Assembly (NCBI GenBank): GCA_009779195.1 | Contig: WRET01000007.1 | Span: 1 to 64,000, forward strand | DNA length: 64,000 nt | Origin: Micrococcales bacterium | GTDB lineage: Bacteria; Actinomycetota; Actinomycetes; Actinomycetales; Cellulomonadaceae | Direction of reading: 5' to 3' | Part shown: positions 3,660 to 51,747 of the stretch, one piece after another | Layout: each line of letters begins with the position of its first letter | Position numbering within the stretch: the first letter of the stretch is position 1 | Program-made: the position numbers and the translations under genes | The notes under the pieces: generated by a model | Told to the model about the DNA's origin: nothing | The model's input: the letters and a program-made list of their open reading frames with translations, nothing else | Database searches by the model: none

Positions 3660-6600
3660 TGAGCGGACCGCCGGGGCGTTCTGGCCGCACCCCTTCTATG
3701 GCTGCCAGGCTCGGCCGCGCCGGTGTGCGAGACGTGGCACGGACCGAACGGCTGCTGGCGGACGCGGCACTGACCGCGGTGGTCCCCGCTGACGCCGACC
3801 TGCCTGGCCTGCTCGGTGAGGTCGCCGACCCGGACCTGGCCGCCCTGGGCCTGGTGAAAGTCGCCGACGCGGTTCGGCCCGGCCCGGCCCGTACGGCGCT
3901 CGTCGCTGCGCTGGCCGACCCGGGGCCTGCGGCGGCCCGGTTGCTGGCGGTGCTCGGCGCGTCGACCGAGCTGGGCAACTTCGTCGCCACACACCCCAAC
4001 GCCCTGCTGGCGGTGCTCGACGACGAACCCGCGACCGGTGTGGACGCTGGTGCGGTCCGTGCCGAGCTGTTGGGCGTCGTCGGTGCTGACCCTGCCGCTG
4101 ACGTGCCTGTCGCCGAACCGGGCGGACCGGCTGGTGTCGACGCCATGAGGGTGGCCTACCGCACCCGGTTGGTGCGGATCGCCGCGGCGGACCTCGTCGC
4201 CGAAGACCCAGCGCAGACCATGCCGCAGGTCGCCGCGGCGCTGGCCGACCTGGCCGCCGCAGCCTTGGAGGCGAGCCTGGCCCTGGCGCGCGCGGAGATG
4301 GACGACCACGGTGCGGGGGTCCGTCTGGCTGTCATCGGTATGGGCAAGTGCGGTGGACGCGAGCTGAACTACGTCTCCGACGTGGATGTGGTCTACGTCG
4401 CCGAACCATGCGAGGGGACACCTGAGGACGAGGCCATGGTCGTCGGCGCACGCCTGGCCACGTCGTTGGCCCGGGCCTGCTCGTCAGTGTCGGGCGAACC
4501 TGCTCTGTGGCCCGTGGACGCTGCTTTGCGCCCCGAAGGCAAAGACGGCCCGCTGGTGCGCACCTTGGCCAGCCACCGCACGTACTACGAGCGCTGGGCC
4601 CGCACCTGGGAGTTCCAAGCCCTGCTCAAAGCCCGTCCGCTGGCCGGTGACGCCGGGCTCGGTGCCGCGTACGTCGAGATGACCCAACCGTTCGTGTGGT
4701 CAGCGGTGACCCGCGAGCACTTCGTCGAAGACTCCCAGGCCATGCGCCGCCGCGTCGAAGAGCACCTGCCGCGTGCGCAGGCAGACCGGCAGATCAAGCT
4801 GGGTGTCGGCGGGCTGCGTGACGTGGAGTTCACTGTGCAGCTGCTGCAGCTGGTCCACGGCCGCGCCGACGAGACCATCCGCTCGGGCAACACCTTGACG
4901 GCGCTGGCAGCGCTGGCATCGGTCGGGTACGTCGGACGAGACCACGCCGCCCAGCTCGACCAGCACTACCGGTTCTTGCGCGTCATGGAGCACCGGTTGC
5001 AGCTGGCACGGCTGCAGCGCACGCATGTGCTGCCCACCGCCGAGGCAGACCTGGAACGTCTGGCCCGGTCGATGGGGATGCGCGGCGCCGACGTGCTCAC
5101 CGAACGGTGGCGGTCCACCCAGCGTGACGTGCGCCACCTGCACGAAGAGATGTTCTACCGTCCGCTCCTGCCTGCCACCGCCCAGCTGTCCACCGACGAG
5201 GCCCGGCTCGCCCCCGACGCAGCCAAAGCCCGCCTGGCAGCCATCGGCTACCGCGACCCCGCCGGAGCGGTACGCCATATCGCTGCGCTCACAGAGGGCC
5301 TGTCGCGCCGGGCCGCGATCCAGCGCCAGCTGCTGCCGGTGATGCTCGGGTGGTTCGCCGACGGCGCCGACCCCGACGCTGGTCTCCTGGCGTTCCGACG
5401 GTTGTCGGACACCCTCGGCTCGACCCACTGGTACCTGAAGCTGCTGCGCGACTCCGGCAACGCCGCCCAGAACCTGTCGTCGGTGCTGTCCACGTCACGC
5501 TATGTGGCCGACGTGCTGACCCGCTCGCCCAAGTCCGTCATGTGGCTCGGCGACGACGCCGAGCTCGAACCCCGCCCGCACCAGGTGCTGTGGGCCGAGG
5601 CCGAGGCGATCTTGGACCGCACCGAAGAACCTGTCGCCGCAGCCGTCGCCCTGCGGGCGCTACGCCGTCGCGAGATGGCACGGGCCGCGTGCGCCCAGGT
5701 GCTGGCCCAGGTCACCGAAGACCGGGTGGCCGCGTCGGTGACCACCGCCACCGACGTGGTGCTCGCCGGAGGGGTGCGGATCGCCCGCCACCAGGCCCGT
5801 CACAGCCTCGGCCTGGACCAGGACCCGGCGCAGTTCGCGGTCGTCGCCATGGGTCGGCTCGGCGGTCAGGAGATGGGTTACTCCTCGGACGCGGACGTCA
5901 TGTACGTCTACGACCCTGTTGCGTCCGCAGACGCCGCCGTCGCCCAGGAATGGGCCGTCCAGGTGGCTGTCATGCTGCGCGCCCTGCTGGTCGACACCGC
6001 CGCCGAACCGCCCCTGGAGCTCGACACCGACCTGCGCCCCGAAGGACGCAACGGACCGCTGGTGCGCAGCCTCGCCGCGTTCGAGGAGTACTACGAGCGC
6101 TGGTCGTCGGTGTGGGAAGCCCAGGCGCTGCTGCGTGCCCGGCCGGTCGCCGGTGACCAGGACCTGGGGGAGAGGTTCATGGCCCTGGCCGACCCGGTGC
6201 GCTACCCCACCGGAGGGCTGGCCCTGGCCGACGTGCGCGAGATCCGCCGTATCAAAGCACGGGTCGAGGCTGAGCGCCTGCCCCGCGGCGTCGACCCTGC
6301 ACGGCACGTCAAGCTCGGCCGTGGGGGTCTGTCCGACGTGGAGTGGACCGCACAGCTGTACCAGCTGTGCCACGCCCACGAGGTCGTGGCCCTGCGCACC
6401 ACGTCGACCACCGGCGCCCTGGACGCCGCCGCCGAGGCCGGCCTGCTCGAGAGCGACGACGTGCAGGTGCTGCGTGCTGCCTGGGAGCTGGCCATGCGGG
6501 TGCGTGACGCGAACGTCCTGTGGTCTGGCCGCACCGACCCCGCGCACACCAACCAGCTGCCGCACGACCGGCGCACCCTTGTCGGGGTCGCCCGTGCCAT

Positions 6601-6697
6601 GGGTTACGGACCTGGCGGTGGAGCGGCGCTGGAGGAGGAGTACCTGCGCTCGGCCCGTCGTTCGCGTGCTGTCGTCGAACGTGTCTTCTACGGCTGA
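3659..6697 (+). CDS. glnE: Bifunctional glutamine synthetase adenylyltransferase/deadenylylase
   Basis: Two nucleotidyltransferase repeats (GMGKCGGRELNYVSDVDVVYV; AMGRLGGQEMGYSSDADVMYVYD). ATG overlaps the glnA stop. Confidence 0.95.
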   Translation: MSGPPGRSGRTPSMAARLGRAGVRDVARTERLLADAALTAVVPADADLPGLLGEVADPDLAALGLVKVADAVRPGPARTALVAALADPGPAAARLLAVLGASTELGNFVATHPNALLAVLDDEPATGVDAGAVRAELLGVVGADPAADVPVAEPGGPAGVDAMRVAYRTRLVRIAAADLVAEDPAQTMPQVAAALADLAAAALEASLALARAEMDDHGAGVRLAVIGMGKCGGRELNYVSDVDVVYVAEPCEGTPEDEAMVVGARLATSLARACSSVSGEPALWPVDAALRPEGKDGPLVRTLASHRTYYERWARTWEFQALLKARPLAGDAGLGAAYVEMTQPFVWSAVTREHFVEDSQAMRRRVEEHLPRAQADRQIKLGVGGLRDVEFTVQLLQLVHGRADETIRSGNTLTALAALASVGYVGRDHAAQLDQHYRFLRVMEHRLQLARLQRTHVLPTAEADLERLARSMGMRGADVLTERWRSTQRDVRHLHEEMFYRPLLPATAQLSTDEARLAPDAAKARLAAIGYRDPAGAVRHIAALTEGLSRRAAIQRQLLPVMLGWFADGADPDAGLLAFRRLSDTLGSTHWYLKLLRDSGNAAQNLSSVLSTSRYVADVLTRSPKSVMWLGDDAELEPRPHQVLWAEAEAILDRTEEPVAAAVALRALRRREMARAACAQVLAQVTEDRVAASVTTATDVVLAGGVRIARHQARHSLGLDQDPAQFAVVAMGRLGGQEMGYSSDADVMYVYDPVASADAAVAQEWAVQVAVMLRALLVDTAAEPPLELDTDLRPEGRNGPLVRSLAAFEEYYERWSSVWEAQALLRARPVAGDQDLGERFMALADPVRYPTGGLALADVREIRRIKARVEAERLPRGVDPARHVKLGRGGLSDVEWTAQLYQLCHAHEVVALRTTSTTGALDAAAEAGLLESDDVQVLRAAWELAMRVRDANVLWSGRTDPAHTNQLPHDRRTLVGVARAMGYGPGGGAALEEEYLRSARRSRAVVERVFYG

Positions 6698-6784
6698 GCT
6701 TCGATCCACAGGTTTTCGTCGTGAGCGTCACCTAACAGAGGTGAAGTGGGTCCTGCGGCTGCCAGATCGGGCTAGGGTTGTCCT

Positions 6785-7168
6785 GTGCTCAGAGCGTTGC
6801 CGGTCGTCATCGATGTCGCTCTGCTCGTCTACTGCCTGATCGACTGTATCCAGACCCCGCCGTGCCAGGTGAGGAACCTGTCCAAAACGGTGTGGTTGCT
6901 GTTGATCATCTTCATCGCGTTCGCCGGTCCCATCGCCTGGCTGGTCGCAGGCCGCCCGTCGCGGACCCCGCTGTGGCAGCCGTCAGCTGAGCCGGCAGGC
7001 GGGCGGTACACCGGTCGGCGCGCACCCGACGACGACCCGGAGTTCCTGGCTTCTATCCAGGCGTCCGACGAGCGCCACGAGCAGATGCTCGCCGAGTGGG
7101 AAGCCCAGCTGCGCGAACGCGAGAGCCGCCTGCGCGACCACGACTCCGACGACGACTCGTCGCGCTGA
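6785..7168 (+). CDS. PLDc_N-type small membrane protein
   Basis: Two hydrophobic segments, RNLSKTVWLLLIIF...GPIAWLVAGRP pattern, charged C-terminal tail. Confidence 0.7.
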   Translation: MLRALPVVIDVALLVYCLIDCIQTPPCQVRNLSKTVWLLLIIFIAFAGPIAWLVAGRPSRTPLWQPSAEPAGGRYTGRRAPDDDPEFLASIQASDERHEQMLAEWEAQLRERESRLRDHDSDDDSSR

Positions 7169-7182
7169 CCAGGCCGATACCT

Positions 7183-7551
7183 ATGCTCAGGGCACTTGCA
7201 GTGACCATCGGGGTCGGTCTGCTCCTGTACTGCTTCATCGACGCGCTCCAGGCCGACCCGGCCCGGGTCCGCAACCTGCCGCGCATGCTGTGGCTGCTGG
7301 TCATCGTCGCCGTGCCGGTCTTCGGCCCTCTCGCCTGGTTGTTCCTCGGCCGTCCGCTGTGGCAGGCCCCCTGGCACACCGCCCCGCCGCGTCGCCGAGG
7401 CCCCGACGACGACCCCGACTTCCTCGCGTCCCTGCGCCCCAACGACCCCACCCGCGAACAAAAGCTTGCCCAGTGGGAAGCCGAGCTGCGCGAACGCGAA
7501 CGTCGCCTCGGCGACAACCCCGACGACGAGACCCCCTCCTCGCGACGCTAG
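7183..7551 (+). CDS. PLDc_N-type small membrane protein, paralogue of the upstream gene
   Basis: RNLPRMLWLLVIVAVPVFGPLAWLFLGRP. ATG 7183 aligns with the start of the preceding gene. Confidence 0.7.
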   Translation: MLRALAVTIGVGLLLYCFIDALQADPARVRNLPRMLWLLVIVAVPVFGPLAWLFLGRPLWQAPWHTAPPRRRGPDDDPDFLASLRPNDPTREQKLAQWEAELRERERRLGDNPDDETPSSRR

Positions 7552-7566
7552 CGGCGTTGTCCTGCC

Positions 7567-8049
7567 CTATCCGACGCGCTGGAGCACCAGCTTCGGAGAA
7601 TCGTCCGACCCGCTGTAGAGCTCGATGTTGTTCGCGTCGATGATCACCACACGGAAGTTGGTGGTCCCACCGAGAAGTCCGGTGACGACCAGCCGCCACG
7701 TGCCGTTCTCCTTGTAGAACGCGTAGGTGTCCTGCGGGCTGTAGAGAGTGGCCTGACCATCGCCGAACAGCACGATCGCACCCGGCTGGGCCTGGCCCCA
7801 ACCTTCGCTGCCGACAGATTTCCAGGTCCCGCGGATGTCGTACGAGTCCGGGACGGACGGACGAGAGTCCTGCTGACCCGTCGCGGGTGGGTCGTCCACC
7901 GAAGGCTCGTCTGGCACACCTTGGGGCACGTCCTGGCCCACAGGCTGGCCGCCGACAGCACCGGAGCCACTGTCACCATCACTGTTCCCACAGGCGCCCA
8001 ACACCAACGCCGTGATGAGCACCGAAACCAGCAACACCAGCTTCTTCAT
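7567..8049 (-). CDS. Putative lipoprotein
   Basis: MKKLVLLVSVLITALVLGAC lipobox. Confidence 0.7.
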   Translation of the reverse strand: MKKLVLLVSVLITALVLGACGNSDGDSGSGAVGGQPVGQDVPQGVPDEPSVDDPPATGQQDSRPSVPDSYDIRGTWKSVGSEGWGQAQPGAIVLFGDGQATLYSPQDTYAFYKENGTWRLVVTGLLGGTTNFRVVIIDANNIELYSGSDDSPKLVLQRVG

Positions 8050-21582: not shown

Positions 21583-22431
21583 TCATGCCAGGGGTGCGCG
21601 CAACCACTCCAGCCAGGCGTCGACACCCTCGCCGGTACGGGCCGACAGCTCGATGACCTGCGCCTGCGGGTTGACAGCTGTGAGGTTGGACCGGAACAGG
21701 TCCATGTCGAAGTCCAGGTACGGCGCCAGGTCCATCTTGTTGACCACGACGGCACCGACCGAACGGAACATCACCGGGTACTTCAGCGGTTTGTCCTCGC
21801 CTTCGGTGATCGCGTAGACCATGGCCTTGCGGTGCTCGCCGACGTCGAACTCCGCCGGGCACACCAGGTTCCCGACGTTCTCGACCACGAGCAGGTCCGC
21901 AGCGTCCAGGTCCAGGCCGCGCAGGGCCTTGGCGACCATGGGAGCGTCGAGGTGGCACTCGCCGCCGAACCCGTCGCCAGTGTTGAGCAAGGAGATCTGC
22001 GCCCCCATGCCGCCCAGGCGTTCGGCGTCGAGGGGGGTCTCGATATCGCCTTCGATGACGGCGACCCGGACCGAGCCTTCGAACGCGGCCAGGGTCCGGG
22101 CGAGCAGGGTGGTCTTGCCGGAGCCTGGTGAGCTCATGAGGTTGACCGCGTGGACCCCGGCGGCGTCCAGGGCGGCACGGTTGGCCGCGGCGAGCTCGTC
22201 GTTCTCGGCGTAGATGTCCTGGAGGATCTCGATACGCTCCCGGCCGGTCTGATAACCGGTGTGGTCGCCGATGAGCTCGGCGAGCGCCTGCGGGTCGTCC
22301 TCGGTGGGGGCGGCGGCGTGGCGCCCACGGGGGCGGGGCTGGTCACCAGACGGGTGTTCGTGGTGGTGGCCCTCGTCGTCGTGGTCGTGGGAGTGGACAG
22401 TGCCGTCGTCATGACGGTGAAAGCGCCCCAT
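21583..22431 (-). CDS. hypB: Hydrogenase nickel incorporation GTPase HypB with His-rich N-terminus
   Basis: HRHDDGTVHSHDHDDEGHHHEH, SSPGSGKTTLLARTL, EGDIETPLDAERL, ENVGNLVCPAEFDVGE, NKMDLAPYL. Confidence 0.95.
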   Translation of the reverse strand: MGRFHRHDDGTVHSHDHDDEGHHHEHPSGDQPRPRGRHAAAPTEDDPQALAELIGDHTGYQTGRERIEILQDIYAENDELAAANRAALDAAGVHAVNLMSSPGSGKTTLLARTLAAFEGSVRVAVIEGDIETPLDAERLGGMGAQISLLNTGDGFGGECHLDAPMVAKALRGLDLDAADLLVVENVGNLVCPAEFDVGEHRKAMVYAITEGEDKPLKYPVMFRSVGAVVVNKMDLAPYLDFDMDLFRSNLTAVNPQAQVIELSARTGEGVDAWLEWLRAPLA

Positions 22432-22807
22432 CGAGCGTTCCTTCCTGTTCGGGTGTGCAGTCGTCGTCGGGTCCGTCGACGTCCACAGCGGTGAGCACGA
22501 ACTCCTCGCCGGCGGACACGTGCGTGCGCGACGACCCGCACGCTGGGCAGTCGAACCCCAGCTGGCGTCCCAGACGGGTGTTGTGCTGGCAGTCGTCGCA
22601 GGTCACGACGGCCTGGACGTGGTGCAGCTCCAGACGCGCGCCGTCGAGGGCGGTGCCTCGCACGACGAACGTCCACGCGTGCGCCATGGCCTCAGGCACC
22701 ACCTGGCGCAGCTCGCCGACGGTGACGTAGACGGTCTGGACATGACGTCCAGCGGTGGCGCGCGTGACCGCAGCCGCCACTTGGCGGCACAACGAGACCT
22801 CGTGCAC
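22409..22807 (-). CDS. hypA: Hydrogenase nickel metallochaperone HypA (copy 1)
   Basis: MHEVSLCRQV from GTG at 22807; zinc motif CDDCQ...CPAC. Confidence 0.9.
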   Translation of the reverse strand: MHEVSLCRQVAAAVTRATAGRHVQTVYVTVGELRQVVPEAMAHAWTFVVRGTALDGARLELHHVQAVVTCDDCQHNTRLGRQLGFDCPACGSSRTHVSAGEEFVLTAVDVDGPDDDCTPEQEGTLDGALSPS

Positions 22808-22886: not shown

Positions 22887-22902
22887 TTGCGTCGTGTCGC
22901 AA
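22887..22902. promoter_or_regulatory. Candidate Nur-like (Fur family) operator in the hypA/hydrogenase divergent region
   Basis: TTGCGTCGTGTCGCAA: TTGCG-N6-CGCAA palindrome. TTGCG[A/T]CGTGTCGC recurs upstream of the Ni/Co importer (54551). Confidence 0.5.
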
Positions 22903-23168
22903 TAGAGTGCGGCGGGGTGAAAATTTCGAAATATTTGACTGTTCTTTTCCAAATCTTGGGCCTTGTCGGGGCCTGAGCGCTGGAGCCCTTGACCCAAGCG
23001 TGGCGTGTGACCGTCTTGTGACGAAAGTCCTGTGTCAGGTTGTCGGACAGGCGGCTCCATCCTCGATATAGTCCTGTTCGGTCTGGGTCGTCAGTGCGGC
23101 GTCAACTGCCTCACCTCGGTTCGGGTCAGGCATCCCCGCGAGAGAGAGCCAAGGGAGGATCTCTTCGA

Positions 23169-24587
23169 ATGTCGTACGAGGTGAGTGGTTGGCAAGAGCC
23201 AACTCTGGGCGAGAACCTCGCCCGAGCCGGCGTCAAGCGCCGGGACTTCCTGAAGTTCTGTGGCGGACTGGCAGGCGTGCTCGCCGCTGGTTCCCAGCTC
23301 AACGGGGGAGCAGCCCACGCCGCTCCGACGGCTGAGCAGATCGCTGCGGTCCTGGAGGGGCAGACCAAGCCCATCTTGGTGTGGCTGCAGCTGCAGGAGT
23401 GCACAGGCTGCATCGAGTCGACGCTGCGCTCAGGCGGGACCACGGTGGAGGACATCGTCCTCGACCTGCTGTCGGTGAACTACGTCGAGGCGATCATGGC
23501 GCCCTCGGGCGACGCCGCGAACCAGGCGCTGGACGAGGCGAACAAAGAGCCCCACATCCTCGTGGTCAACGGCTCGGTCCCCAAGGACCTGGACGGTGCC
23601 TACTGCACCATCGGCGGGGAGTCGGCCAAGAGGGTGCTCGAAAAGTCGGCGAAGAACGCCGTGGCGGTCCTGGCTGTCGGTGCCTGTGCGGTGTGGGGTG
23701 GCGTCCAGGCGTCGCGCGCGCCAGGTGCGGGCCCGAACGGCCCCACCAACGCTGTGGGTGTCGACCAGATCATCAAGAACAAGCCGGTCATCAACATCGG
23801 TGGCTGCCCGCCGATCGGCGAGGTCATCACTGCCACCTGCGCCTACCTGCTCACCCACGCCAAAGCTGACGGTTCGCTGAAGCTGCCCGAGCTGGACGCC
23901 GAGGGCCGGCCCCGGTTCGCCTACGACCAGCGTATCCACGACTCGTGCCCGCGCCGGGCGCACTACGACGCTGGCCAGTTCGTCAAGACTTTCGACGACG
24001 CCGCCGCACGCAACGGCTGGTGCCTGTACGAGGTCGGCTGCAAAGGCCCGAGCACGTTCAGCGCCTGCCCGGTCATCCAGTGGAACATGCACACCAGCTG
24101 GCCGATCGGCGCTGGCCACCCGTGTATCGGCTGTACGGAGAAGAACTTCTTCGACGAGTTCACCCCGTTCTACTCCACGCTGCCCGACGTCCACGGCTTC
24201 GGTATCGAGGCGTCGGCGGAGAGGGTCGGCTGGACGGTCGCCGGGATCGCCGTCGCTGGTGTCGCCGCGCACGCCACGCTCACCGCGGTACGTCACGCAG
24301 CGTCGCGCAAGGCTGCGGCCGAGGCCCCGCTGGACGCGTTCGGCGACTCCAAGGTGTGGTTGCCTGACCCGACGGTCAAGGACGCCGCAGCTGGTGAACC
24401 CGAGCCAGCCGCCGAACCTGAGCCAGCTGCCGGACCCGGGCCAGTCGAGCCCGAGGCTGGACCTCCCGCGGCTGAAGAGCCCGAGCCGGTGGAAGCACCG
24501 TCACCGCCACCATGGCTAGCCTCCGAACCGGCTGACGGCGAGCCGGAAGACACCGAGACAACCGATCCTTCCGGAAAGGCGGAGTAG
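23169..24587 (+). CDS. [NiFe]-hydrogenase group 1-type small subunit, Tat-exported
   Basis: Tat motif KRRDFLKFCGG, ECTGCIES, VGACAVWGG, HDSCPRRAHYDAGQF, PCIGCTE; C-terminal TM and Pro/Glu/Ala-rich tail. Confidence 0.93.
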   Translation: MSYEVSGWQEPTLGENLARAGVKRRDFLKFCGGLAGVLAAGSQLNGGAAHAAPTAEQIAAVLEGQTKPILVWLQLQECTGCIESTLRSGGTTVEDIVLDLLSVNYVEAIMAPSGDAANQALDEANKEPHILVVNGSVPKDLDGAYCTIGGESAKRVLEKSAKNAVAVLAVGACAVWGGVQASRAPGAGPNGPTNAVGVDQIIKNKPVINIGGCPPIGEVITATCAYLLTHAKADGSLKLPELDAEGRPRFAYDQRIHDSCPRRAHYDAGQFVKTFDDAAARNGWCLYEVGCKGPSTFSACPVIQWNMHTSWPIGAGHPCIGCTEKNFFDEFTPFYSTLPDVHGFGIEASAERVGWTVAGIAVAGVAAHATLTAVRHAASRKAAAEAPLDAFGDSKVWLPDPTVKDAAAGEPEPAAEPEPAAGPGPVEPEAGPPAAEEPEPVEAPSPPPWLASEPADGEPEDTETTDPSGKAE

Positions 24588-24591: not shown

Positions 24592-26418
24592 ATGTCCGTG
24601 AACGTCGTCATCGACCCGCTCACCCGTATCGAGGGTCACCTGCGCGTCGAGCTGGAGCACGCCAACGGCGTCATCGCCAAGGCGTGGAGCGAGACCACCC
24701 AGTTCCGTGGTCTAGAAGAGATCGTCAAGAACCGCGACCCGCGTGACGTGTGGGCGTTCCTCCAGCGGATCTGCGGGGTGTGCACCTCCGTGCACGCCAT
24801 CGCCTCGATCTCCGCCGTGGAGAACGCCCTCGGGATCGTCCCGCCCGAACAGGCGCGCCGCATCCGTGACATCGTCCTGGGCGCCCAAGAGGTCCAGGAC
24901 CACGTCATCCACTTCTACCACCTGCACGCCCTGGACTGGGTGGACGTGGTCTCGGCCGCGTCGGCCGACCCGGCCGAGGCGTTGGAGTTCGCCAGGTCGA
25001 TCGGTTCGACCTGGAAGGGCAACACCCTCGAGCGCTTCACCGCCGTGCGCGACAAGGTCGTCGAGATCGCCGAGTCTGGCCAGCTGTCCATCTTCACCGG
25101 CGGCTACTGGGGCCACGAGGCGTACAAGCTGCCGCCTGCGGCGAACCTCATGGCCGTCTCGCACTACCTCGACGCGCTGGAGTTCCAGCGGTCGGTCATC
25201 CGTATCGTCACGACGTTCGGTGGCAAGAACCCGCACCCGAACTTCCTCGTCGGCGGTATGGCGTGCAGTATCGACCCGAACCGTTCGGAGTCGATCAACC
25301 AGGTCCAGCTCGACCAGGTCCAGAAGTGGATCGACGAGACGCTCGAGTTCGTCAACACCTGCTACGTGCCTGACGGGCTGGCGATCCTCAGCGTCTACGG
25401 CGGGCCGAACCGCCCCGACCCGGCCTCCCCGGACTGGTTCACCATCGGTGCGACCGCACCGAACTTCCTGGCGTTGGGACGCTCCGGTGCCATCTACTCC
25501 GGCGACCCGGCCAAGGCCAACGTCGACCGCGACAACGACCTGCACCGCGACCTGGTGCCTGGTGTGGTGCTCGACGGCGAGCTCAAGCTCAAGGCTTTCG
25601 ACCCCCGGCTGCTCACCGAGTCCATCACCTCGGCCTGGTACACCTACGCCGACGGCAAGAAACAGCTCCACCCGAGCGAAGGCGAGACCAGCGTCAAGTA
25701 CACCGGCCCCAAGCCGCCGTACCCACCCGCAGCGGAAGGCGACTTCCTCGCCGACTCCAAGGACGGCAAGTACACCTGGTGCAAGGAACCGCGTTACGAC
25801 GGCCGTGCCATGCAGGTCGGCCCAGCTGCGCGTGTGCTGTCGGCCTACCTCCAGGGCGACAAAGACACTGTCGACCTGGTCAACACAGCCGTCGAGGTGC
25901 TCGGTATCGAGCCGGGACAGCTGAACTCCACCGCTGGGCGCACCCTGGCCCGTGCGGTCGAGGCGGCCACAGCGGCCAAACGCCTGAACGAGACCTTCGC
26001 CCAGTTCGCCGAAGCCCTCAAAGGCGGGGACATCGACGTGTTCGACGGGTCCAAGTGGGACCCGTCGACGTGGCCCAAGGACGAGGTGCACGGGTACTCG
26101 TTCGTCGAGGTCGCCCGCGGCAACCTCAGCCACTGGGTGTCCATCAAGGGCGGCAAGGTCACGCGGTACCAGGCCGTCGTGCCGACCACCTGGCTGGCCA
26201 GCGGGCGTGACCCCAACGGCGTCGCTGGCCCCTACGAGGAGGCTCTGGGCGGCGACTCCGCCCTGGCTGCGATCCCGTGGGCCACGCCGCACCCGCTGAT
26301 CGACCCCGAACAGCCGGTGGAGGTCATGCGGACCATCCACTCGTTCGACCCGTGCATGTCGTGCGCTGTGCACCTGCTCGACCCTGACGGCAACGAGCTG
26401 GGAGTCGTGACGTCATGA
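24592..26418 (+). CDS. [NiFe]-hydrogenase large subunit
   Basis: L1 RICGVCTSVHA and L2 DPCMSCAVH followed by a short extension LLDPDGNELGVVTS. Confidence 0.95.
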   Translation: MSVNVVIDPLTRIEGHLRVELEHANGVIAKAWSETTQFRGLEEIVKNRDPRDVWAFLQRICGVCTSVHAIASISAVENALGIVPPEQARRIRDIVLGAQEVQDHVIHFYHLHALDWVDVVSAASADPAEALEFARSIGSTWKGNTLERFTAVRDKVVEIAESGQLSIFTGGYWGHEAYKLPPAANLMAVSHYLDALEFQRSVIRIVTTFGGKNPHPNFLVGGMACSIDPNRSESINQVQLDQVQKWIDETLEFVNTCYVPDGLAILSVYGGPNRPDPASPDWFTIGATAPNFLALGRSGAIYSGDPAKANVDRDNDLHRDLVPGVVLDGELKLKAFDPRLLTESITSAWYTYADGKKQLHPSEGETSVKYTGPKPPYPPAAEGDFLADSKDGKYTWCKEPRYDGRAMQVGPAARVLSAYLQGDKDTVDLVNTAVEVLGIEPGQLNSTAGRTLARAVEAATAAKRLNETFAQFAEALKGGDIDVFDGSKWDPSTWPKDEVHGYSFVEVARGNLSHWVSIKGGKVTRYQAVVPTTWLASGRDPNGVAGPYEEALGGDSALAAIPWATPHPLIDPEQPVEVMRTIHSFDPCMSCAVHLLDPDGNELGVVTS

Positions 26419-27644
26419 CCGCAAGCGACGAAGCCGTGCGGGTGCAGGTCCCGCGGCTCCAGGTCGGCGACGTGGTGAGCGTCGGCGGCCTGAGCCATGG
26501 GCGTCTCGTCGCTCTGGCTGCCGCTGGGCAGCCCAGCGCGGACGACCCTGTGGGCGAGGCGCTCGGCCGGTCGTTGGAAGAACAACACCCAGGTATCCCT
26601 GCTGCCGCGGTGGCCGACGAGGATATCGACCGTGCAAGCACGGACCGGCGCTACAGCCTGGTCCGGGTGCGAGAGTTGTCGATGCCCTCAGGCGGTTCCC
26701 GCGACGTGATGGTCATGAGCGGCGAGTTCGCCGCGGTGCTCGGTGACAGCACCTCCAGCCGGGCTTCTGCGGCGTTGCTGCGCCGTAACGCCCGGCGGAC
26801 GGTGGCCCGCGAAGGGCGTCCGTTCACCGTGGCTGCGGCGCCGGTGTCTGCCGACGGCACTGTCGGGGAGTACCGGCTGCAAGGGTTCGTCGGGTTGCAC
26901 CCGGTCGGCCCGCGCTACGACCACGTCGACGACCCGGACGAGTCGTACGTCAGGGTCTACCTGTGGTCGGCGTTGCTGCGCTGGCAGCACTGGCTCAACG
27001 TGGCGCTGATCCTCACCCTGTCGGTCACCGGCTACCTCATCATGACCCCCTCGCTGCTGCCCACGGCTGCTGTGCGGGTCGGCGAGGCGTCGGGGTACAC
27101 CATGGGCTGGGTGCGCAACATCCACTTCGCCGCAGCGTTCACCTGGCTGGTCCTCGCTCTGGCACGGCTGGTCCTGGCGTTCTTGTCCTCCGACCGTTTC
27201 CTGCGGTGGCCGACGTTCTGGCCGCTGAAGTCCAAGGCAGACTTCCGTCACCTGGGCCAGGTCGTGTCGCACTACGCCCTCGTCCGGCGTGAGGCGCCGT
27301 TGTACCTGGCGCACAACCCGCTGCAGCAGCTGGCGTACACCGCGCTGTACGTCATCGCGCTGCTCCAGATGGCCTCCGGGTTCGTGCTGTACTCGCTGTA
27401 CGAGCGGACAGGCGGGATCTGGTCGGTCGTCGGCGACATCGGCTTCTGGGGCTGGGGGACCCCCGGGATCCGGTTGTTCCACGCCGTGTCCATGTTCGTC
27501 ATCTGGGCGTTCGCCATCATGCATGTCTACATGGCACTGCGGGCTGACGCTCTCGAACGCCGCGGTGGGATCTCTGCCATGATCAACGGCGGCGTGTGGC
27601 TTCCGCGGGGTTCCAAACCCGTCGACGCCCCTGAGGTTGAGTGA
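26415..27644 (+). CDS. Hydrogenase cytochrome b subunit (HyaC-like) with ~175-aa N-terminal extension
   Basis: Four-TM cytochrome b core: LLRWQHWLNVALILTLSVTGYLI, RNIHFAAAFTW, RLFHAVSMFVIWAFAIMHVYMALR. Overlaps large-subunit stop. Confidence 0.88.
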   Translation: MTASDEAVRVQVPRLQVGDVVSVGGLSHGRLVALAAAGQPSADDPVGEALGRSLEEQHPGIPAAAVADEDIDRASTDRRYSLVRVRELSMPSGGSRDVMVMSGEFAAVLGDSTSSRASAALLRRNARRTVAREGRPFTVAAAPVSADGTVGEYRLQGFVGLHPVGPRYDHVDDPDESYVRVYLWSALLRWQHWLNVALILTLSVTGYLIMTPSLLPTAAVRVGEASGYTMGWVRNIHFAAAFTWLVLALARLVLAFLSSDRFLRWPTFWPLKSKADFRHLGQVVSHYALVRREAPLYLAHNPLQQLAYTALYVIALLQMASGFVLYSLYERTGGIWSVVGDIGFWGWGTPGIRLFHAVSMFVIWAFAIMHVYMALRADALERRGGISAMINGGVWLPRGSKPVDAPEVE

Positions 27645-28144
27645 ACGACGCACAGTGGGATGCCCCGCCCACACCGGTGACGGTGCTGGGCGTGGGCAAC
27701 CCCATCATGGCCGACGACGGGACCGGCCCTGAGCTGTTGACGCGTCTGCGCGCGCAGCGGCCGGACCCGCGCGTCGGATACGTCGACGGCGTCACCGGCG
27801 GTATGGAGCTGCTCCCGGTGGTTACCGAGGCCACACGGCTGCTGGTGCTCGACGCGGTCGCCGGTGCCACACCCGGGCAGGTCGTGCGCCTGTCCGGCGA
27901 CCAGCTGCCCCGGCTGCTGTCAGGCCAGCTGTCGCCGCACCAGGTGGGTCTGCTCGACGTGTTCTCCGCCGCCCGGCTGCTGGACCGTGAGCCTGAGCAG
28001 ATCGAGGTCGTGGGGATCGTCCCGGCCAAGGTCGAGATGAGCGTCGGCCTGTCCGCTGCGGTCACCGCGGCGCTGGGCGACGCTGTCGGCGCGGCTGTCG
28101 CGGTGCTCGACGGCTGGTTGGCCGACCTGGACGGTCAGCCGTGA
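27641..28144 (+). CDS. Hydrogenase maturation endopeptidase (HyaD/HybD family)
   Basis: VLGVGNPIMADDGTGPELL, YVDGVTGGMELLP, LLVLDAV, SPHQVGLLDVF. Confidence 0.9.
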   Translation: MNDAQWDAPPTPVTVLGVGNPIMADDGTGPELLTRLRAQRPDPRVGYVDGVTGGMELLPVVTEATRLLVLDAVAGATPGQVVRLSGDQLPRLLSGQLSPHQVGLLDVFSAARLLDREPEQIEVVGIVPAKVEMSVGLSAAVTAALGDAVGAAVAVLDGWLADLDGQP

Positions 28145-28500
28145 GGTTCGGCCGGGACGTCGAGGTCAGCATGGGTGACTGCCAGCTCGCGTCCGCGCAC
28201 CAGCTGTCCGGTCGTCGTACCGCACACCGGGCACTCGAGCGCGAAGAACTGGTCGATCGGCTGCTCCGCCGCGCACGACGGGCACCACACCGCCGCCTGC
28301 ACCATCTCCACGTCCAGCCGCGCGCCTGCCACGACGGTCCCGGCTGTGGCGATCGGCCACGCCCCGTCCAACGCCTCAGGCACTGCCCCCGACAGGCTCC
28401 CCACCCGGATCCCCACCGCTTCGACCCCTGTGGCACCAGCCTCGGCTGCCACCTTCTCCACAGCAGCCACCACCGACCGCAACAACCCCAGCTCGTGCAC
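28135..28500 (-). CDS. hypA: Hydrogenase nickel metallochaperone HypA (copy 2)
   Basis: MHELGLLRSVV; CPSC...CPVC zinc motif. Confidence 0.88.
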   Translation of the reverse strand: MHELGLLRSVVAAVEKVAAEAGATGVEAVGIRVGSLSGAVPEALDGAWPIATAGTVVAGARLDVEMVQAAVWCPSCAAEQPIDQFFALECPVCGTTTGQLVRGRELAVTHADLDVPAEPHG

Positions 28501-28514
28501 GCCCCCATGGTGGC

Positions 28515-29843
28515 ATGGTTCACGGGGTCGGTTCGGCGATCGGAGACCCGGTGAGCCAGCGCTGGGTGCTCGACGAGATCGTCGACGCGTACGGGGCCAC
28601 TGTCGTGGTGGAACGTGACGCGCAGGGCAGGGCGTCAGCGGCGCGCTTCGACCTGACAGGGTTGCCCAGGGTGGACGCCATGCTCACCGGACAACCCGTG
28701 GGCGGGGTTCCTGCGCTCGTAGAACGCTTGTGCGGGATCTGCCCGGCGGCGCACCACCTGGCCGGGGTCAGGGCGTTGGAGGCTCTGGCGACGACGACCC
28801 CGACCCCAGCAGGCACAGCGGTGCGGGCGCTGCTGCACCACGGCGCCACGATCGAGACCCACGCCGCGCGCCTGGCCGTCGTCGACCCGCAGGGTGCGAT
28901 GACGTTGCGGACGTTCGGCAAGGCTGCGGCGGCTGCGGCAGGGTCCCCTGGGCACTTCCCTGCGACAGCGGTCGTCGGGGGAGTGGCTGGTCTCGTGCCG
29001 TCGTCGGCCTGTGACGAGCTGGCTGCGAGCGCAGGGCCAGCCCTGGAGGCTGCTGTGGCCATCGCCGGCCAAGAGCTGAGCACCGGGGCGGCCGGGCACC
29101 CCTACCGGGGTGCGGACGTCGCCTTGGTGGGCTCTGACGGCCATCCGGACCTGCTGGGCGAACGGCTGAGGGTGGTCGCGGCCGACGGGACCGTCGTCGA
29201 ACCGTCCGCCGCGCCCGCTGGGTGGGACGACCTCGTCGTCGAGTCGGTCCCCGGTGCCCCCGCACCACGTCCCTACCTGGTCGCGCTCGGTCCGAGCGAC
29301 GGCGGGTACAGGGTGGGCCCGGTCTCCCAGCTGCGGGTCGGCACGTTGACCACACCTGTGGCCGCTGGGCTGCAGGCACAGTGGGCAGCAGCGGGAGCAG
29401 GGGCGCGTGTGGCACGGGCCATCATCACCGTGCACTGCGTGGAGGCAGTCGCAGCAGCAGTGTCTGGCGGGACGCTCACCGAAGGGGACCCGCAGGCCGC
29501 CCCCGGCGGGTTCGACCAGCCCGGGGTGGGTGTGGGTTGGGCGGACGGTCCACGGGGCCTGCTCGTCCACCGCTACGTCACCGACGGCAGCGGAACACTG
29601 ACCCAGGCGATGATCCTCACTCCGACGGCCCAGAACGAACGCTGGCTCGCCGAGCTGTTGCTGGACGCTGTCGACCACCCGGGCGCTGCCGGCGCCGATG
29701 GTGTCGTAGCAGGTCAGCCCGCGTTGGAGGAAGCCGTCCGCGAGGCGGACCCGTGCCTGCCGGTCACCAGCGCCCCCATCGGGGGGATGGGTCTGACGGT
29801 GGCGACCGTGGCAGCATCTGAACCCCGACGAGGGAGCAGCTAG
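28515..29843 (+). CDS. Degenerate [NiFe]-hydrogenase large-subunit paralogue (HupK/HoxV-like, probable maturation scaffold)
   Basis: Retains L1-like VERLCGICPAAHHLAG; C-terminal L2-like EADPCLPVTSAP keeps one Cys only. Confidence 0.75.
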   Translation: MVHGVGSAIGDPVSQRWVLDEIVDAYGATVVVERDAQGRASAARFDLTGLPRVDAMLTGQPVGGVPALVERLCGICPAAHHLAGVRALEALATTTPTPAGTAVRALLHHGATIETHAARLAVVDPQGAMTLRTFGKAAAAAAGSPGHFPATAVVGGVAGLVPSSACDELAASAGPALEAAVAIAGQELSTGAAGHPYRGADVALVGSDGHPDLLGERLRVVAADGTVVEPSAAPAGWDDLVVESVPGAPAPRPYLVALGPSDGGYRVGPVSQLRVGTLTTPVAAGLQAQWAAAGAGARVARAIITVHCVEAVAAAVSGGTLTEGDPQAAPGGFDQPGVGVGWADGPRGLLVHRYVTDGSGTLTQAMILTPTAQNERWLAELLLDAVDHPGAAGADGVVAGQPALEEAVREADPCLPVTSAPIGGMGLTVATVAASEPRRGSS

Positions 29844-30098
29844 ATGTGCGTGTCGATCCCCGCCCGGATCGTGCAGATCACCGAGGGCGCGATGACGATG
29901 GCCGAGGTCGAGGTGGCCGGCCAGGTCGAGACCTGCTGCCTGGCGTACCTGCCGGACGCCGGGGTGGGTGACCACGTGCTGGTCCAGAACGGGTTCGCTG
30001 TGGAGCTGCTCGACCCCCAGGCCGCCGCGGAGTCGCTGGCCGCGTTCGTGGCCTTGGGGCTGGTCCCCGGGGGCGCAGCCCTCGGCGACGAAGGCTGA
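29844..30098 (+). CDS. hypC: HypC/HupF-type maturation chaperone (copy 1)
   Basis: MCVSIPARIVQI...AYLPDAGVGDHVLVQNGFAVELLD. Confidence 0.88.
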   Translation: MCVSIPARIVQITEGAMTMAEVEVAGQVETCCLAYLPDAGVGDHVLVQNGFAVELLDPQAAAESLAAFVALGLVPGGAALGDEG

Positions 30099-30109
30099 AC
30101 GGTCTCGCT

Positions 30110-32491
30110 GTGCGGCGCACGCTGCTGGTCACGGGGGTCGTCCAAGGCGTCGGTTTCCGTCCGCACGTCTACCGGCTGGCTGTCGGTCTGGGTGTGGTCG
30201 GTTCGGTGCGTAACACCGCAGCAGGGGTGGTGGTCGACGCGCAGGCACCAGCGGCGGTCCTTGACGAGCTGGCCCGGCGCATCGCGTCCGACGCCCCGCC
30301 GCTGGCTGAGATCCGCTCGGTACGCACCCAGGACGAGACCAGCGACGACCCAGACCTCGCTGGTTTCGCCATCGTCGCCTCAGCAGACGCCGACGGGCCC
30401 CGCGCCACCGTCCCACCCGACTGCGCGGTGTGCGACGACTGCCTCACCGAGCTGTTCGACCCGGCTGACCGCCGCTACCGCCATCCGTTCATCACCTGCA
30501 CGAACTGCGGCCCACGGTTCACGATCATCACCGGTGTCCCCTACGACCGCCCGAAAACCTCGATGGCCGCCTTTGCCATGTGCCCGGCCTGCGCCGGGGA
30601 GTACCAGGACCCCGCCGACCGCCGGTTCCACGCCCAGCCCGTGGCCTGCCCCGGCTGCGGCCCCCACCTGTGGACCGACGACGGCACCGGCCGCGGCACC
30701 CCCGGGGACGAGACCGCCCTCGCACAGGCCCAGCAGGTCCTGGCCGACGGCGGGACTGTTGCGGTCAAAGGTCTGGGCGGGTACCACCTGGCGTGCCGTG
30801 CCGACGACGAGAGCGCCGTGCAGCGGCTACGGGACCGCAAGCACCGCCCCGACAAACCCTTCGCCCTCATGGCCGTCGACCTGGCCTCCGCGAAGCGCCT
30901 CGTGACGCTCGACGAGCCGGCAGCCGCGCTCCTGACCGACCCTGCCCGTCCTGTCGTCCTGGCCCCTCGTCGGCCGGGTGCCCTGGTGGCTGACGCTGTG
31001 GCCCCCGGAACGCCTGAGCTTGGCGTCATGCTCGCCTACACCCCGGTGCACCACCTGCTCATGCACCCAGGCCCCTCAGGTGCACCGGTGTGCGACGTGC
31101 TCGTCATGACCTCGGCGAACCTGTCCGACGAACCGCTGTGCTACCGCGACGACCAGGCGGACCTGTTGCTCACCCTGGCTGACCTGGTGCTGGGTCACGA
31201 CCGGCCTATCGTCACCCCCTGCGACGACTCGGTGTTCCGTGTGGTCGACGGACAGCCGTACCCCGTACGACGTTCGCGCGGCCACACCCCCCTGCCGGTG
31301 CGGCTGGACCACGCCGGCCCAGCCACGTTCGCCGTGGGCGCCGAGCTGAAGAACACTGTGTGCGTCCTCGACGGCCGCGACGCCGTGTGCTCCCAGCACC
31401 TGGGAGACATGGCCGGCTGGGAGTCGCAGCAGGTGCTCGCCGCGACATCCGCGCACGTCATGGACCTGTACGAGGTCGGTGCGACCCGTTGGGCCGCCGA
31501 CGCCCACCCCGCCTACCAGACCCGTGCCTGGGCGCAGCGCTTCGCCCAGGTCCCGCTCGTCGAGGTCCAGCACCACCGCGCCCACGTCGCGTCGCTGCTG
31601 GCCGAGAACCACCTTGTCGGCACGCCGCTGCTCGCCGCCTGTTTCGACGGCACCGGCTATGGCGACGACGGCGCCGCCTGGGGAGGTGAGTGGCTCCTCG
31701 CCGACGAGCACGTCCCCCAGCGCGGTCAGTCGGCCATTGCACGTGTGGCGTCGTTGGCGCCTGTCGCCATGGTCGGCGGCGACCGTGCTGTCCGCGAACC
31801 GTGGCGTCTGGCCCTCGCCCACCTCCACCACGCCGGTGTCGACTGGTCCGACGACCTGCCCCCGGTTGCCCACGCCGACCCGTCGGCCCGCCAGGTCCTG
31901 GCCCAGCTCCTGGACCGCTGGACCCCCGCAGCACGAGGAACCGTCCCTGGCGTCGTGGCGACGACGTCCATGGGCCGCCTGTTCGACGCTGTCGCATCCC
32001 TGCTCGGCGTCCGCCACGAGATCACCTACGAAGCCCAGGCGGCTGTCGACCTGGAGACCCTCGCAGCCACCGCCATACCCGGGTCAGACCCGTTGCGCTG
32101 GACGGGTGACCAGGGTGTCGCCAGCGCAGGTGGTTGGGGCCCGGCTACCAGCCAATACCTTGGTGACCAGCGTAGACACATCCTCGACCCGGCCGGAGCC
32201 ATCGCGGCGTTGGTCCGTGGACTCGCAGATGGTCAGGACCGGGCCGCGCTCGCGCTAGGGTTCCATGTCTGGGTGTGCCGTGCCGTGGTGGCTGCGGCGC
32301 AGCACGTCCGCACAACCCACGTCGGGCTGACCGGCGGGGTGTTCGCCAATGTGCTTCTCGTGCGCCAGTGCACCGCGCTGCTGCACGAGGCAGGGTTCGA
32401 GGTGGTCCGCCACCACCTGGTGCCGTGCAACGACGGTGGTCTGAGCCTCGGCCAGGCTGTCCTGGCGGCCGCGCACGACGTGAGTCGCTGA
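30110..32491 (+). CDS. hypF: Carbamoyltransferase HypF
   Basis: Acylphosphatase GVVQGVGFRPHVYRLA, zinc fingers CAVCDDCLTEL and CTNCGPRF, Sua5-like KGLGGYHLAC, kinase-like VQHHRAHVASLLAEN. Confidence 0.95.
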   Translation: MRRTLLVTGVVQGVGFRPHVYRLAVGLGVVGSVRNTAAGVVVDAQAPAAVLDELARRIASDAPPLAEIRSVRTQDETSDDPDLAGFAIVASADADGPRATVPPDCAVCDDCLTELFDPADRRYRHPFITCTNCGPRFTIITGVPYDRPKTSMAAFAMCPACAGEYQDPADRRFHAQPVACPGCGPHLWTDDGTGRGTPGDETALAQAQQVLADGGTVAVKGLGGYHLACRADDESAVQRLRDRKHRPDKPFALMAVDLASAKRLVTLDEPAAALLTDPARPVVLAPRRPGALVADAVAPGTPELGVMLAYTPVHHLLMHPGPSGAPVCDVLVMTSANLSDEPLCYRDDQADLLLTLADLVLGHDRPIVTPCDDSVFRVVDGQPYPVRRSRGHTPLPVRLDHAGPATFAVGAELKNTVCVLDGRDAVCSQHLGDMAGWESQQVLAATSAHVMDLYEVGATRWAADAHPAYQTRAWAQRFAQVPLVEVQHHRAHVASLLAENHLVGTPLLAACFDGTGYGDDGAAWGGEWLLADEHVPQRGQSAIARVASLAPVAMVGGDRAVREPWRLALAHLHHAGVDWSDDLPPVAHADPSARQVLAQLLDRWTPAARGTVPGVVATTSMGRLFDAVASLLGVRHEITYEAQAAVDLETLAATAIPGSDPLRWTGDQGVASAGGWGPATSQYLGDQRRHILDPAGAIAALVRGLADGQDRAALALGFHVWVCRAVVAAAQHVRTTHVGLTGGVFANVLLVRQCTALLHEAGFEVVRHHLVPCNDGGLSLGQAVLAAAHDVSR

Positions 32492-32513
32492 TCACACCAG
32501 AAGGGATGACGGT

Positions 32514-32836
32514 ATGTGCCTGGGGATCCCCGGCAAGGTGGTGCGGATCTGGGACGACCGCGGCACCCTCATGGCCGACGTCGACTTCGGCGGAGCCACC
32601 AAAGACGTGTGCCTGGCCTACCTGCCTGACCTGCAGGTCGGTGACTACACCATCGTCCACGCCGGTTTCGCGCTCACCCAGCTCGACGAGGAGTCGGCCA
32701 TCGCCTCGCTCACCGCGTTCCGCGAGCTGGGCATGCTGGAGGCCGAGCTCGGTATCACCTTCAGCGACGGCGAACCTCCAGAGGCCCGCGTTGTCGAGAC
32801 CCCCGCCGCGGAGACACCCGCTGTCGAGGAGACACT

Positions 32837-32840
<4 letters not shown>
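32514..32840 (+). CDS. hypC: HypC maturation chaperone (copy 2)
   Basis: [12 protein letters not shown]...[31 protein letters not shown]. Confidence 0.92.
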
Positions 32841-33939
<1,099 letters not shown>

Positions 33940-33940
<1 letters not shown>

Positions 33941-35016
33941 TGTCACAGGACCTGCCGATCGCCCCGCTCGACGTGACCGCGTGGACGTGCCCGGTGCCGT
34001 TGCGGCACACGGACACGATCGTCTTGGGCCACGGTGGTGGGGGAGTGCTGTCAGGCGAGCTGATCGAGCACCTGTTCCTGCCTGCCCTGGGCGGTGCGAC
34101 CAACGCGGAGATGCGTGACTCAGCAGTCCTCGACGCCCCAGGTGGTCGACGTCTGGCGTTCACCACTGACTCCTATGTCGTCTCGCCGCTGTTCTTCCCC
34201 GGTGGGTGCATCGGCGACCTGGCGGTCAACGGCACGATCAACGACCTGGCCATGTCCGGTGCCCAGCCGTTAGCCCTGTCCGCAGGGTTCATCTTGGAAG
34301 AGGGTCTGGCCACTGACGTCCTGGGCCGTGTGGCCACCGCGATGGGCGCCGCGGCTCGTGCGGCGGGGGTGCCGGTCGTCACCGGTGACACCAAAGTCGT
34401 CGACCGCGGCAAAGCCGACCAGCTGTTCGTCAACACCGCAGGTATCGGTGTGGTCCCCGACGGGGTCGACGTGCGTCCGTCGCGTGCCACCCCCGGCGAT
34501 GTCGTCCTGGTCTCTGGCAATGTCGGTGAGCATGGTGTGGCGGTCATGTCGCTGCGCGAGGGTATCGAGTTCGGAACGACCCTGGCCTCGGACACCGCGC
34601 CGCTGCACGGCCTGGTCGCAGCCCTGCTCGCCGCTGTGCCCGAGGTGCACGTCCTGCGTGACCCCACCCGCGGTGGTGTCGCCGGAACCCTGTGCGAGAT
34701 CGCCGAGGTCGCCGACGTCGGTGTCGAGCTCGAAGAGCCCGCCGTCCCCGTCCCCGAAGCAGTGGCGGCCGCGTGCGGTTTCCTCGGGCTCGACCCCCTG
34801 CACGTGGCCAACGAAGGCAAGCTCGTCACCATCGTCCCGGCCGCCCACGCCGACGCAGCCCTCGCGGCTCTCCAGTCCCACCCCCTGGGCACCCACGCCG
34901 CCATCATCGGCACCGTCGTACCCGACCACCCCGGGCTCCTCGTCGCCCGTTCTTCCCTCGGCGCCGGACGCGTCGTCTCCCGTCCGTTGGGCGAACAGCT
35001 CCCTCGCATCTGCTGA
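33940..35016 (+). CDS. hypE: Hydrogenase maturation protein HypE
   Basis: GHGGGGVLSGELIEHLF, TTDSYVVSPLFFPGGCIGDLAVNGTINDLAMSGA, C-terminal PRIC*. Confidence 0.95.
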
Positions 35017-47400: not shown

Positions 47401-47611
47401 CCGACGTGGCTCGCCCGTTCCCCAGGTCCAGCTCAGCAGTGACGGTGAACGGCCCCACAGCCGTCGATGTCTCGTTGTGCACCCGCACGTCCCGCACCAG
47501 CCGGACGCTGCCCAACAGTGCCGGGTTCACCCGCGGCAGGAACAGCGCGCGGATCCGTACCCCACCCGACACTTGTTCAACCGTCTGGTACAGCCCGTCC
47601 CGCTCCTCCAC
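41477..47611 (-). CDS. 2044-aa multidomain protein: N-terminal beta-sandwich, transglutaminase-like domain, DUF4011-like/SF1 helicase, C-terminal nuclease-like region
   Basis: Transglutaminase-like MGTCLDLAVTYAALAEAVGLDPLVVLTEHHAFACV; Walker A EGPPGTGKSQTITNL; DEASQIPVAEAIG; VVVVGDSKQMPP; NVAITRARQQVLLFSS; C-terminal VLVDGPGWASRPTVADRD...LPDWLRNRDQVVARI. Confidence 0.85.
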   Translation of the reverse strand: MEERDGLYQTVEQVSGGVRIRALFLPRVNPALLGSVRLVRDVRVHNETSTAVGPFTVTAELDLGNGRATSAQVVTGVVAAGQSVSIAEDELFGQLSVATSTEKTTAWVTLRVTPTNAAADLATDVFALADATAEQAPDDEPAWGTAQPWDQPTDDVQDATPDQVSVSVPIMVGAANEFLNLPGLRQYLASFVQPNARVLSPVLKAASDWLAEHTDDGSLAGYTQGPARAQQLAGALYAALGSTGVAYTLPPASYETTGQKVRTPTQVLTDGMGTCLDLAVTYAALAEAVGLDPLVVLTEHHAFACVRTAPGIGDHAVVDDPNTVANLVETGALLPVELTRVGPGANHLPFGKAVAEGHGHVRRLFGQPGRVAGPAHPGSPHAMVTLVDIPRARLDGILPMPGPAGVVDDEPDRPYVVRSALRSITLPDDDVEHVTGTLRREDPSPPRFRTWKRQLLDLSLRNPLLNLPRTSRVLDFVVPDGMLAKIEDAVSAGYTIRTTGADESGATPAPDALRSVFTTQRRLVSVLRPGLHTARLQALRRDAELLEAETGSNYLFLALGTLVHTRSKRRPNAFARSTEPVAAEEHTAEPEPTSEARAPLFLVPVRLKTLAGRSYTFAADGNDPPQPNLCLLEWLKATRGFDLPELAEPPADESGVAIGAALAAIRARLLEAELPFRIDETVTLGLLRFSTFQIWQDLDTNWGALMRNDVVKHLVERPGETFTQDVQTPPRLPERSLRLPVAADGSQMDAIVRASAGQSFVLEGPPGTGKSQTITNLIAHALDSGHTVAFVTAKQAALDVVRRRLDAVGMGDFVLELHGSKVTMRDVRAQLRAAFGAEAGYDVGAWQAAEAEYVAGVDALSAYPPLVHQPGPAGHSLWSAHDAVVSSGPGPSFVPDTSPEATLDPDALRRAAGRFSEASAQLGFTVPAPWALFGPTASDASALPTALARLDAVAGHLDWLGATWHAAFAELSPAPGATACIDDVVRLTHARATGLLATDVAAVDGPGWASEVAVCRAAMTGAWAPPGLVEAPDLDLWAQQARSLTGAVFARWRLRKVQAAVEALVGPVDPLELGPTLDAALATRTRSQALAARTQGIGGLVLPGGWAPHRTDAVTTFDAAVAVARTAHHLSRTAPAAWAAVLGEPSDQQRAAVVEIQTAWATWLAATAATPRTVTAWLGGRTWPDAWAADAPRWRAEAAYVVPQRHAALSAVLAELDRTGGQDLSDRLTSGLVTPADATTAAVRGLAEAGLAERRTRVDGFDGKTHDLTVARYTRAAAGLRALADGRGPARLLAIRPFAPDNLTGEVAALRRQADRRRGGMTLREITTRYPAALHAVVPAFLMSPGAVAHFLDPDFRFDMVIFDEASQIPVAEAIGAMGRGRSVVVVGDSKQMPPSKFMATTSTVSAETVDTDDDVESILDEAVAAGLPRTWLSWHYRSRNEKLVAFSNERYYDGRLVTLPSPGDLPSTGIGWRRLDGVFGRGRSRTNPVEAQAIVDEIAARLADPATAADSIGVVCFNIYQRDLITNLVEESTDPGIVRALARGEGERLFVKNLENVQGDERDTIMFSLAFSVDPKTGQLPLNFGPLVLEGGERRLNVAITRARQQVLLFSSFDPAHIDLRRTNAQGLADLRAYLEAAVAGSHGTPDGQSATRSANRGRFTEALAEALGAAGLECALDVGLSSFRVDLAVRARGDSDWRLAVLVDGPGWASRPTVADRDGAPAMLADLMRWPAVTRVWLPDWLRNRDQVVARIVDTARSAPTLAELMAAEAVPAVPDTAVPDTPAAPDTPADDPLATDPVADPVTDPVDPPVADPVADPVADPMDTTGRVGIVGGNVVGPAGALADDPDAPHWGAPSSTLNTDDTVWFTPAPEPNAGPQSVLSNLQSPRSRHAVTQVVTEALAAEGPMLLARLVNHTAHRFDYSRLGERKRTDLESFLQTTFGTDEHGFVWPPGTGRDTPLPVRPTPKGARTPTEIHPGELDATIGEVLRAACSADRRELTCECARTLGIHPSPAFAAVFDPVLDQAVATARITLTDTRYRLS

Positions 47612-50902: not shown

Positions 50903-50921
50903 CCGTCGTTCGGTGGGGCGG

Positions 50922-51574: not shown

Positions 51575-51747
51575 AAGAGCAAGTGTAGCTCCCGAGGTCA
51601 TCGGTGCGACACCCATGTCATCCTCCCAGGTGGACGTCTTGTCGACGGTGGATATGGGTCTGGGTCGTCGTGTCATAGGTCCAGGGTGGGGCACCGCCCG
51701 GGTGGCCTGCGCCCATCGTGAAAACCTGTGGACAAGCCAGTGGACGG

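Follow-up and report, generated by a model that had tools for sequence, protein, structure and literature searches.

A predicted Nur-type operator shared by a nickel/cobalt importer and the hypAB/hydrogenase region in a Cellulomonadaceae genome

The DNA analyzed here (the window) is the 64,000-nucleotide stretch at the start of contig WRET01000007.1 from a Micrococcales bacterium of the Cellulomonadaceae. It encodes a [NiFe]-hydrogenase with its maturation proteins and, further downstream, a Fur-family regulator and a nickel/cobalt importer of the energy-coupling factor (ECF) type. Two similar palindromes, sites A and B, precede hypA and the importer genes, respectively. The relevant features are:

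21583-22431, minus strand: hypB, nickel-inserting GTPase (PF02492, cobW/HypB/UreG)
22409-22807, minus strand: hypA, nickel metallochaperone (PF01155)
22887-22902, unstranded: site A, predicted Nur-type operator TTGCGT-cgtg-TCGCAA, in the hypA/hydrogenase intergenic region
23044-23072, plus strand: predicted hydrogenase promoter CGGACA-N17-TATAGT, a pattern match only, about 140 bp downstream of site A
23169-24587, plus strand: [NiFe]-hydrogenase small subunit, divergent from hypA (PF14720, PF01058)
24592-26418, plus strand: [NiFe]-hydrogenase large subunit, group-1 type (PF00374; nearest solved structures 3myr and Hydrogenase-1)
26415-35016, plus strand except for the second hypA (minus): remaining hydrogenase cluster, comprising cytochrome b, HycI protease, second hypA, truncated large-subunit-like protein, hypC, hypF, hypC, hypD and hypE
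50408-50902, plus strand: nur-like gene, predicted Fur-family metal-dependent repressor (PF01475; best solved structure 3EYY; histidine alignment)
51748-52509, minus strand: cbiO, ATPase (PF00005; start inferred)
52496-53439, minus strand: cbiQ, transmembrane component (PF02361; start approximate)
53430-54494, minus strand: cbiM-type substrate-binding component of the Ni/Co ECF importer with a C-terminal PDGLE domain (PF01891, PF13190; start inferred)
54551-54566, unstranded: site B, predicted Nur-type operator TTGCGA-cgtg-TCGCGT, 56 bp upstream of cbiM

The hydrogenase cluster beside site A is complete, of the group-1 [NiFe] type, and carries its own hyp genes. The second hypA (28135-28500, minus strand) and the gene for the truncated large-subunit-like protein (28515-29843) lie within this cluster. 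Site A is located in the region between hypA on the minus strand and the plus-strand small-subunit gene, whose ATG at 23169 is 266 bp away. Because of this position, the target of site A could be either hypAB or the hydrogenase operon. The Fur-family gene is convergent to cbiO, and a PIN-domain gene and its small partner are found between them. An open reading frame of 2044 codons occupies positions 41477-47611 on the minus strand.

An earlier note on this DNA had drawn attention to both sites, and its description agrees with our inspection. Site A reads TTGCGTCGTGTCGCAA at 22887-22902, the stretch containing site B reads TTGCGACGTGTCGCGTT at 54551-54567, and 13 of the 14 shared positions are indeed identical. 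The reported 79 bp between site A and hypA hold if GTG at 22807 is taken as the start. For site B, our count to cbiM (start taken as GTG at 54494) is 56 bp instead of 57 bp, and the approximate 0.8 kb given for the distance between the Fur-family gene and the end of the importer operon corresponds to about 846 bp from the Fur-family stop codon to cbiO. Both palindromes have a centre of 4 bp, whereas the Nur box of Streptomyces has one of 5 bp. Site B, which aligns with the boxes of five relatives treated below, is an imperfect palindrome (...CGCGT).

For the scans, a symmetric matrix was derived from six sites found in relatives, with both window sites excluded. Site A (score 21.3) and site B (19.9) ranked first and second in the 64 kb, and the third match scored 10.0. 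A simulation predicts 0.003 and 0.026 matches with scores like those of sites A and B, respectively, per 64 kb. The corresponding expectations per 3.33 Mb are 0.17 and 1.3, where the value for site A is rough because the underlying count is 1 in 20 million positions. The genome-wide tests were pattern searches; when TATTGCGACRYGTCGC was searched with up to three mismatches, sites A and B were the top two matches in the genome (3.33 Mb, 125 contigs). The loose pattern TTGC-N8/9-GCAA was discarded as an operator marker, since its 41 genomic sites versus 92 for the control make it worthless by itself.

The protein encoded at 50408-50902 has a Fur-family fold (PF01475, E 6.7e-22). Its closest solved structure by sequence is Streptomyces coelicolor Nur (3EYY, E 4.5e-24), with which it shares 36% identity over the aligned part; the Zur-type FurB matches at 1.3e-12. 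The seven histidines of the Ni site and M site of Nur (H33, H70, H72, H86, H88, H90 and H126, in the numbering of 3EYY) are all present in the window protein; not every relative's regulator keeps H86. Based on its closest structure and the seven histidines, the protein is Nur-like. The genome contains four Fur-family matches, and the other three (one Zur-like, two FurA/CatR-like) do not have the full histidine set and are not Nur-like, so that a second Nur was dismissed as a candidate regulator. In phylogenetic trees, the window protein is separate from the Zur and FurA-like paralogues, and its join with 3EYY is ambiguous with long branches.

Comparison with related regulators, for which a search of named genomes found 80 loci, firmly ties the box to nickel or cobalt transport. 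In five relatives (L097, L098, L099, which is Cellulomonas citrea, L101 and L102), the 16-bp box TTGCGA-N4-TCGCAA lies between the Fur-family orthologue and cbiM, about 50 bp before the latter, and in a sixth (G201) it precedes a gene for an SBP_bac_5 transporter (solute-binding protein). A related regulator lies near 28 genes of the cbiM or NicO type, and 23 of these carry a box that matches at least 10 of 12 positions within about 220 bp, versus none of the 28 in the reversed-arm control, although these cases are not all independent because the genomes are partly close kin. The half-sites in this clade match those of the Streptomyces Nur box, but the spacer is 4 bp instead of 5 bp; boxes of more distant actinobacteria mostly have a 5-bp centre, as does the Streptomyces consensus tTGCaa-N5-ttGCAA (PMC3919588). 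In the regulator tree, the 4-bp-spacer group forms one side of a single branch, whose support of 93/91 is just below the usual mark. The link between regulator and importer proposed in the earlier note has thus gained strong support from the position of the box between orthologous regulators and cbiM in the five relatives, its occurrence near Ni/Co transporters in distant actinobacteria, and the conserved histidines, and for the importer and the regulator a nickel regulon is a well-supported prediction. Even 16-bp palindromes are also common among TetR- and LacI-type regulators, and one of these, for example, might bind both sites while the nearby Fur-family gene is coincidental. We regard this as highly improbable: the boxes adjoin orthologues of the Fur-family gene in five close relatives, they accompany related regulators in many more distant genomes, and they have the half-sites of Streptomyces Nur.

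The nearest relative, G198, is the metagenome-assembled genome (MAG) Th196P3bin61, and Th196 refers to the humus-feeding termite Termes hospes (PMC7024585). Genomes G198 to G203 were matched across genome sets by identical coordinates. In G198, hypBA and the hydrogenase cluster are followed after about 9.5 kb by nur-cbiM-cbiQ-cbiO and a HAD gene, which share one direction. In the window, by comparison, cbiMQO and the operator (50903-54566) form an inverted block with respect to nur and the HAD gene, and because of this inversion the regulator gene no longer lies beside its own predicted operator. The PIN-domain gene (50922-51497) and its small partner are situated at one inversion junction and are unmatched in the compared G198 stretch.

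The earlier note had also considered that the motif might be common and unlinked to metal genes. When seven genomes were searched for TGCGWCRYGTYGCAA, allowing one mismatch, few places were returned, and every intergenic match was located at a cbiM promoter (six genomes), in the hypA/hydrogenase region (the window genome and G198), or at the SBP_bac_5 gene of G201. The linkage to nickel-related genes is near-exclusive, and in G198 the box occurs at just two places, cbiM and hypA/hydrogenase. All other matches were found inside predicted genes or in a long hairpin (C12); this hairpin match and those inside genes at C76, C27 and C75 were rejected as regulon members. This hairpin, CCGGACTGGTGCGACACGTCGCACCAGTCCGG at G000:C12:4436-4467 (L006:1495-1526), has 15-bp arms and mimics the operator motif; on present evidence it is not regulatory.

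The function of site A is less clear-cut. Its counterpart in G198, TTGCGTCATGTCGCAG, occupies the same place and keeps 14 of 16 positions, as compared to an intergenic mean of 66%. An analogous case is found in L103, a further actinomycete, where a tsaD-hypA-hypB operon is found at a distance of about 2.2 kb from the regulator gene. A box matching 11 of 12 positions lies 70 bp before this operon, and a second box precedes cbiM of L103. No box was detected between hypA and the hydrogenase genes in the hydrogenase-bearing congeners G200, G201, G202 and G203, nor in G551, and the contig of G199 ends before this region. The stretches examined at about 20 further hypB loci in the order contained no box; in this comparison, the window alone shows one. 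Owing to this patchy distribution, control of hypAB looks like a recent and patchy addition. The connection between regulator and hypAB made in the earlier note is of moderate strength: it is backed by two sister genomes and one analogous operon, it is weakened by the five hydrogenase-bearing congeners without a hyp box, and a nickel regulon that includes hypAB is moderately supported. The same absences would fit a scenario in which only site B is a Nur operator and site A a decayed or chance palindrome of no function for hypAB. This is unlikely, however, because site A attains the best score in the window with a matrix from which it was excluded, only 0.17 such matches are expected per genome, and its conserved counterpart is one of the two matching places in G198.

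Another possibility agrees with our preferred explanation in all but the target of site A. Instead of hypAB, nickel-loaded Nur could control the hydrogenase operon on the other side of the intergenic region and either activate or repress its transcription. The spacing from box to hydrogenase start is preserved (266 bp in the window, about 277 bp in G198) and that to hypA is not (79 and about 210 bp), and for this reason the hydrogenase side may be the target. The -10 element of the predicted hydrogenase promoter and the leader are conserved in G198, and for hypA no convincingly conserved -10 element was found. Yet the sole promoter-like match, which is on the hydrogenase side, is separated from site A by about 140 bp in the downstream direction. 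This is far for a Fur-family repressor, and we consider this target possible but less likely. The hydrogenase leader of about 100 bp (23066-23168) is nearly identical to that of G198. It folds no better than shuffled sequences (z 1.15), and with no Rfam match in the window either, a riboswitch or structured leader was rejected.

As to the metal, CbiMQO-type importers carry cobalt or nickel, and the metal choice of Fur-family proteins is not readable from sequence alone. The regulator might therefore sense cobalt (or zinc) and the importer supply cobalt for cobalamin. This is improbable in light of the conserved Nur histidines, the linkage to hydrogenase and hyp genes, and the NicO and SBP_bac_5 transporters that were found with the same regulator or box. 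Furthermore, neither a cobalamin riboswitch nor any other Rfam match was detected in the window, which favours nickel over cobalt. Within the genus, 82 genomes were compared and 8 have the hydrogenase; seven of the eight make up the group that carries the 4-bp-spacer regulator clade. A urease was not found in the genome, and hydrogenase may hence be the main nickel consumer. A search for nickel superoxide dismutase (Sod_Ni) gave no match in the genome, and none in the control genomes.

Taken together, sites A and B most probably are operators of the Nur-like repressor, which would repress the importer and the hypAB/hydrogenase region in response to nickel. When nickel is plentiful, the nickel-loaded dimer would bind TTGCGA-N4-TCGCAA. 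At site B it would block the cbiMQO promoter, and at site A the promoter region that separates hypAB from the hydrogenase genes. When nickel is short, the dimer would be released, and import and nickel delivery to hydrogenase would rise together. The sequence comparisons show the sites themselves, how they are conserved, how closely they are linked to nickel-related genes, and the histidines of the regulator. From these we infer that the protein binds the sites, that nickel is its effector and that it represses instead of activating, and also that site A mainly serves hypAB and not the hydrogenase operon. Since related genomes tie the shared 16-letter box to a nearby Nur-type repressor, the cell probably tunes nickel uptake and insertion together.

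In the open-access literature searched, Nur is described from Streptomyces, with superoxide dismutase and nickel import as targets (sodF and nikABCDE); the S. coelicolor protein (PDB 3EYY) recognizes the box tTGCaa-N5-ttGCAA (PMC3919588; PMC7055735). The system predicted here resembles it in the Fur fold, the seven metal-site histidines, the half-site TTGCRA/TYGCAA and a nickel importer as a predicted target. It differs in the 4-bp spacer, in the linkage of the regulator to cbiM instead of ygfZ in the window clade, and in the hydrogenase maturation genes as an added predicted target. NikR regulons likewise combine importer and nickel-enzyme genes under one nickel sensor, as predicted here, but NikR belongs to the ribbon-helix-helix proteins and recognizes different operators. 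In Frankia cluster I, nur adjoins gcp (tsaD) and ureG (PMC4531530). The proximity of nur to tsaD and a nickel chaperone is a shared trait, with L103 having the boxed tsaD-hypA-hypB operon; for Frankia, the gene neighbourhood and not operators was reported, and the chaperone is UreG there and HypAB here. The box of the L103 operon (5281-7823), TTGCGA-cacgg-TAGCAA, is of the Nur type, and the locus recalls the gcp/ureG neighbourhood of Frankia nur.

No report linking Nur to cbiM or hydrogenase was found in the open-access literature searched, although earlier reports may exist in subscription papers. What appears to be new is a variant Nur regulon with an operator spacer shortened by one base and hydrogenase maturation as an added target. 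On balance, we slightly favour a history in which the Nur operator lost one spacer base at all sites together in one Cellulomonas/termite-gut clade, and two termite-lineage genomes added the genes for nickel insertion into hydrogenase to the regulon, so that import and maturation answer to one Fur-type sensor. This comparative prediction would bring hydrogenase maturation under a Fur-type nickel sensor in actinobacteria of the gut, a habitat in which the uptake of hydrogen may be important. The naturally occurring series of operators, with spacers of either 4 or 5 bp, also offers material for studying how Fur-family dimers read spacing.

Two further sequence elements were noticed around site A. 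Repeats similar to GGGAC-N4-GTCCC, which resemble DosR/DevR boxes, precede the hydrogenase genes in the hypA/hydrogenase regions of the Cellulomonas relatives L179, L180, L181 and L243; the corresponding repeat in the window (23018-23031) is weak, matching 8 of 10 positions, a level met 57 times in the 64 kb. An AT-rich segment at 22921-22950, AATTTCGAAATATTTGAC...TTTTCC, is kept in three termite-gut genomes (the window genome, L177 and L178), one of them without a Nur box.
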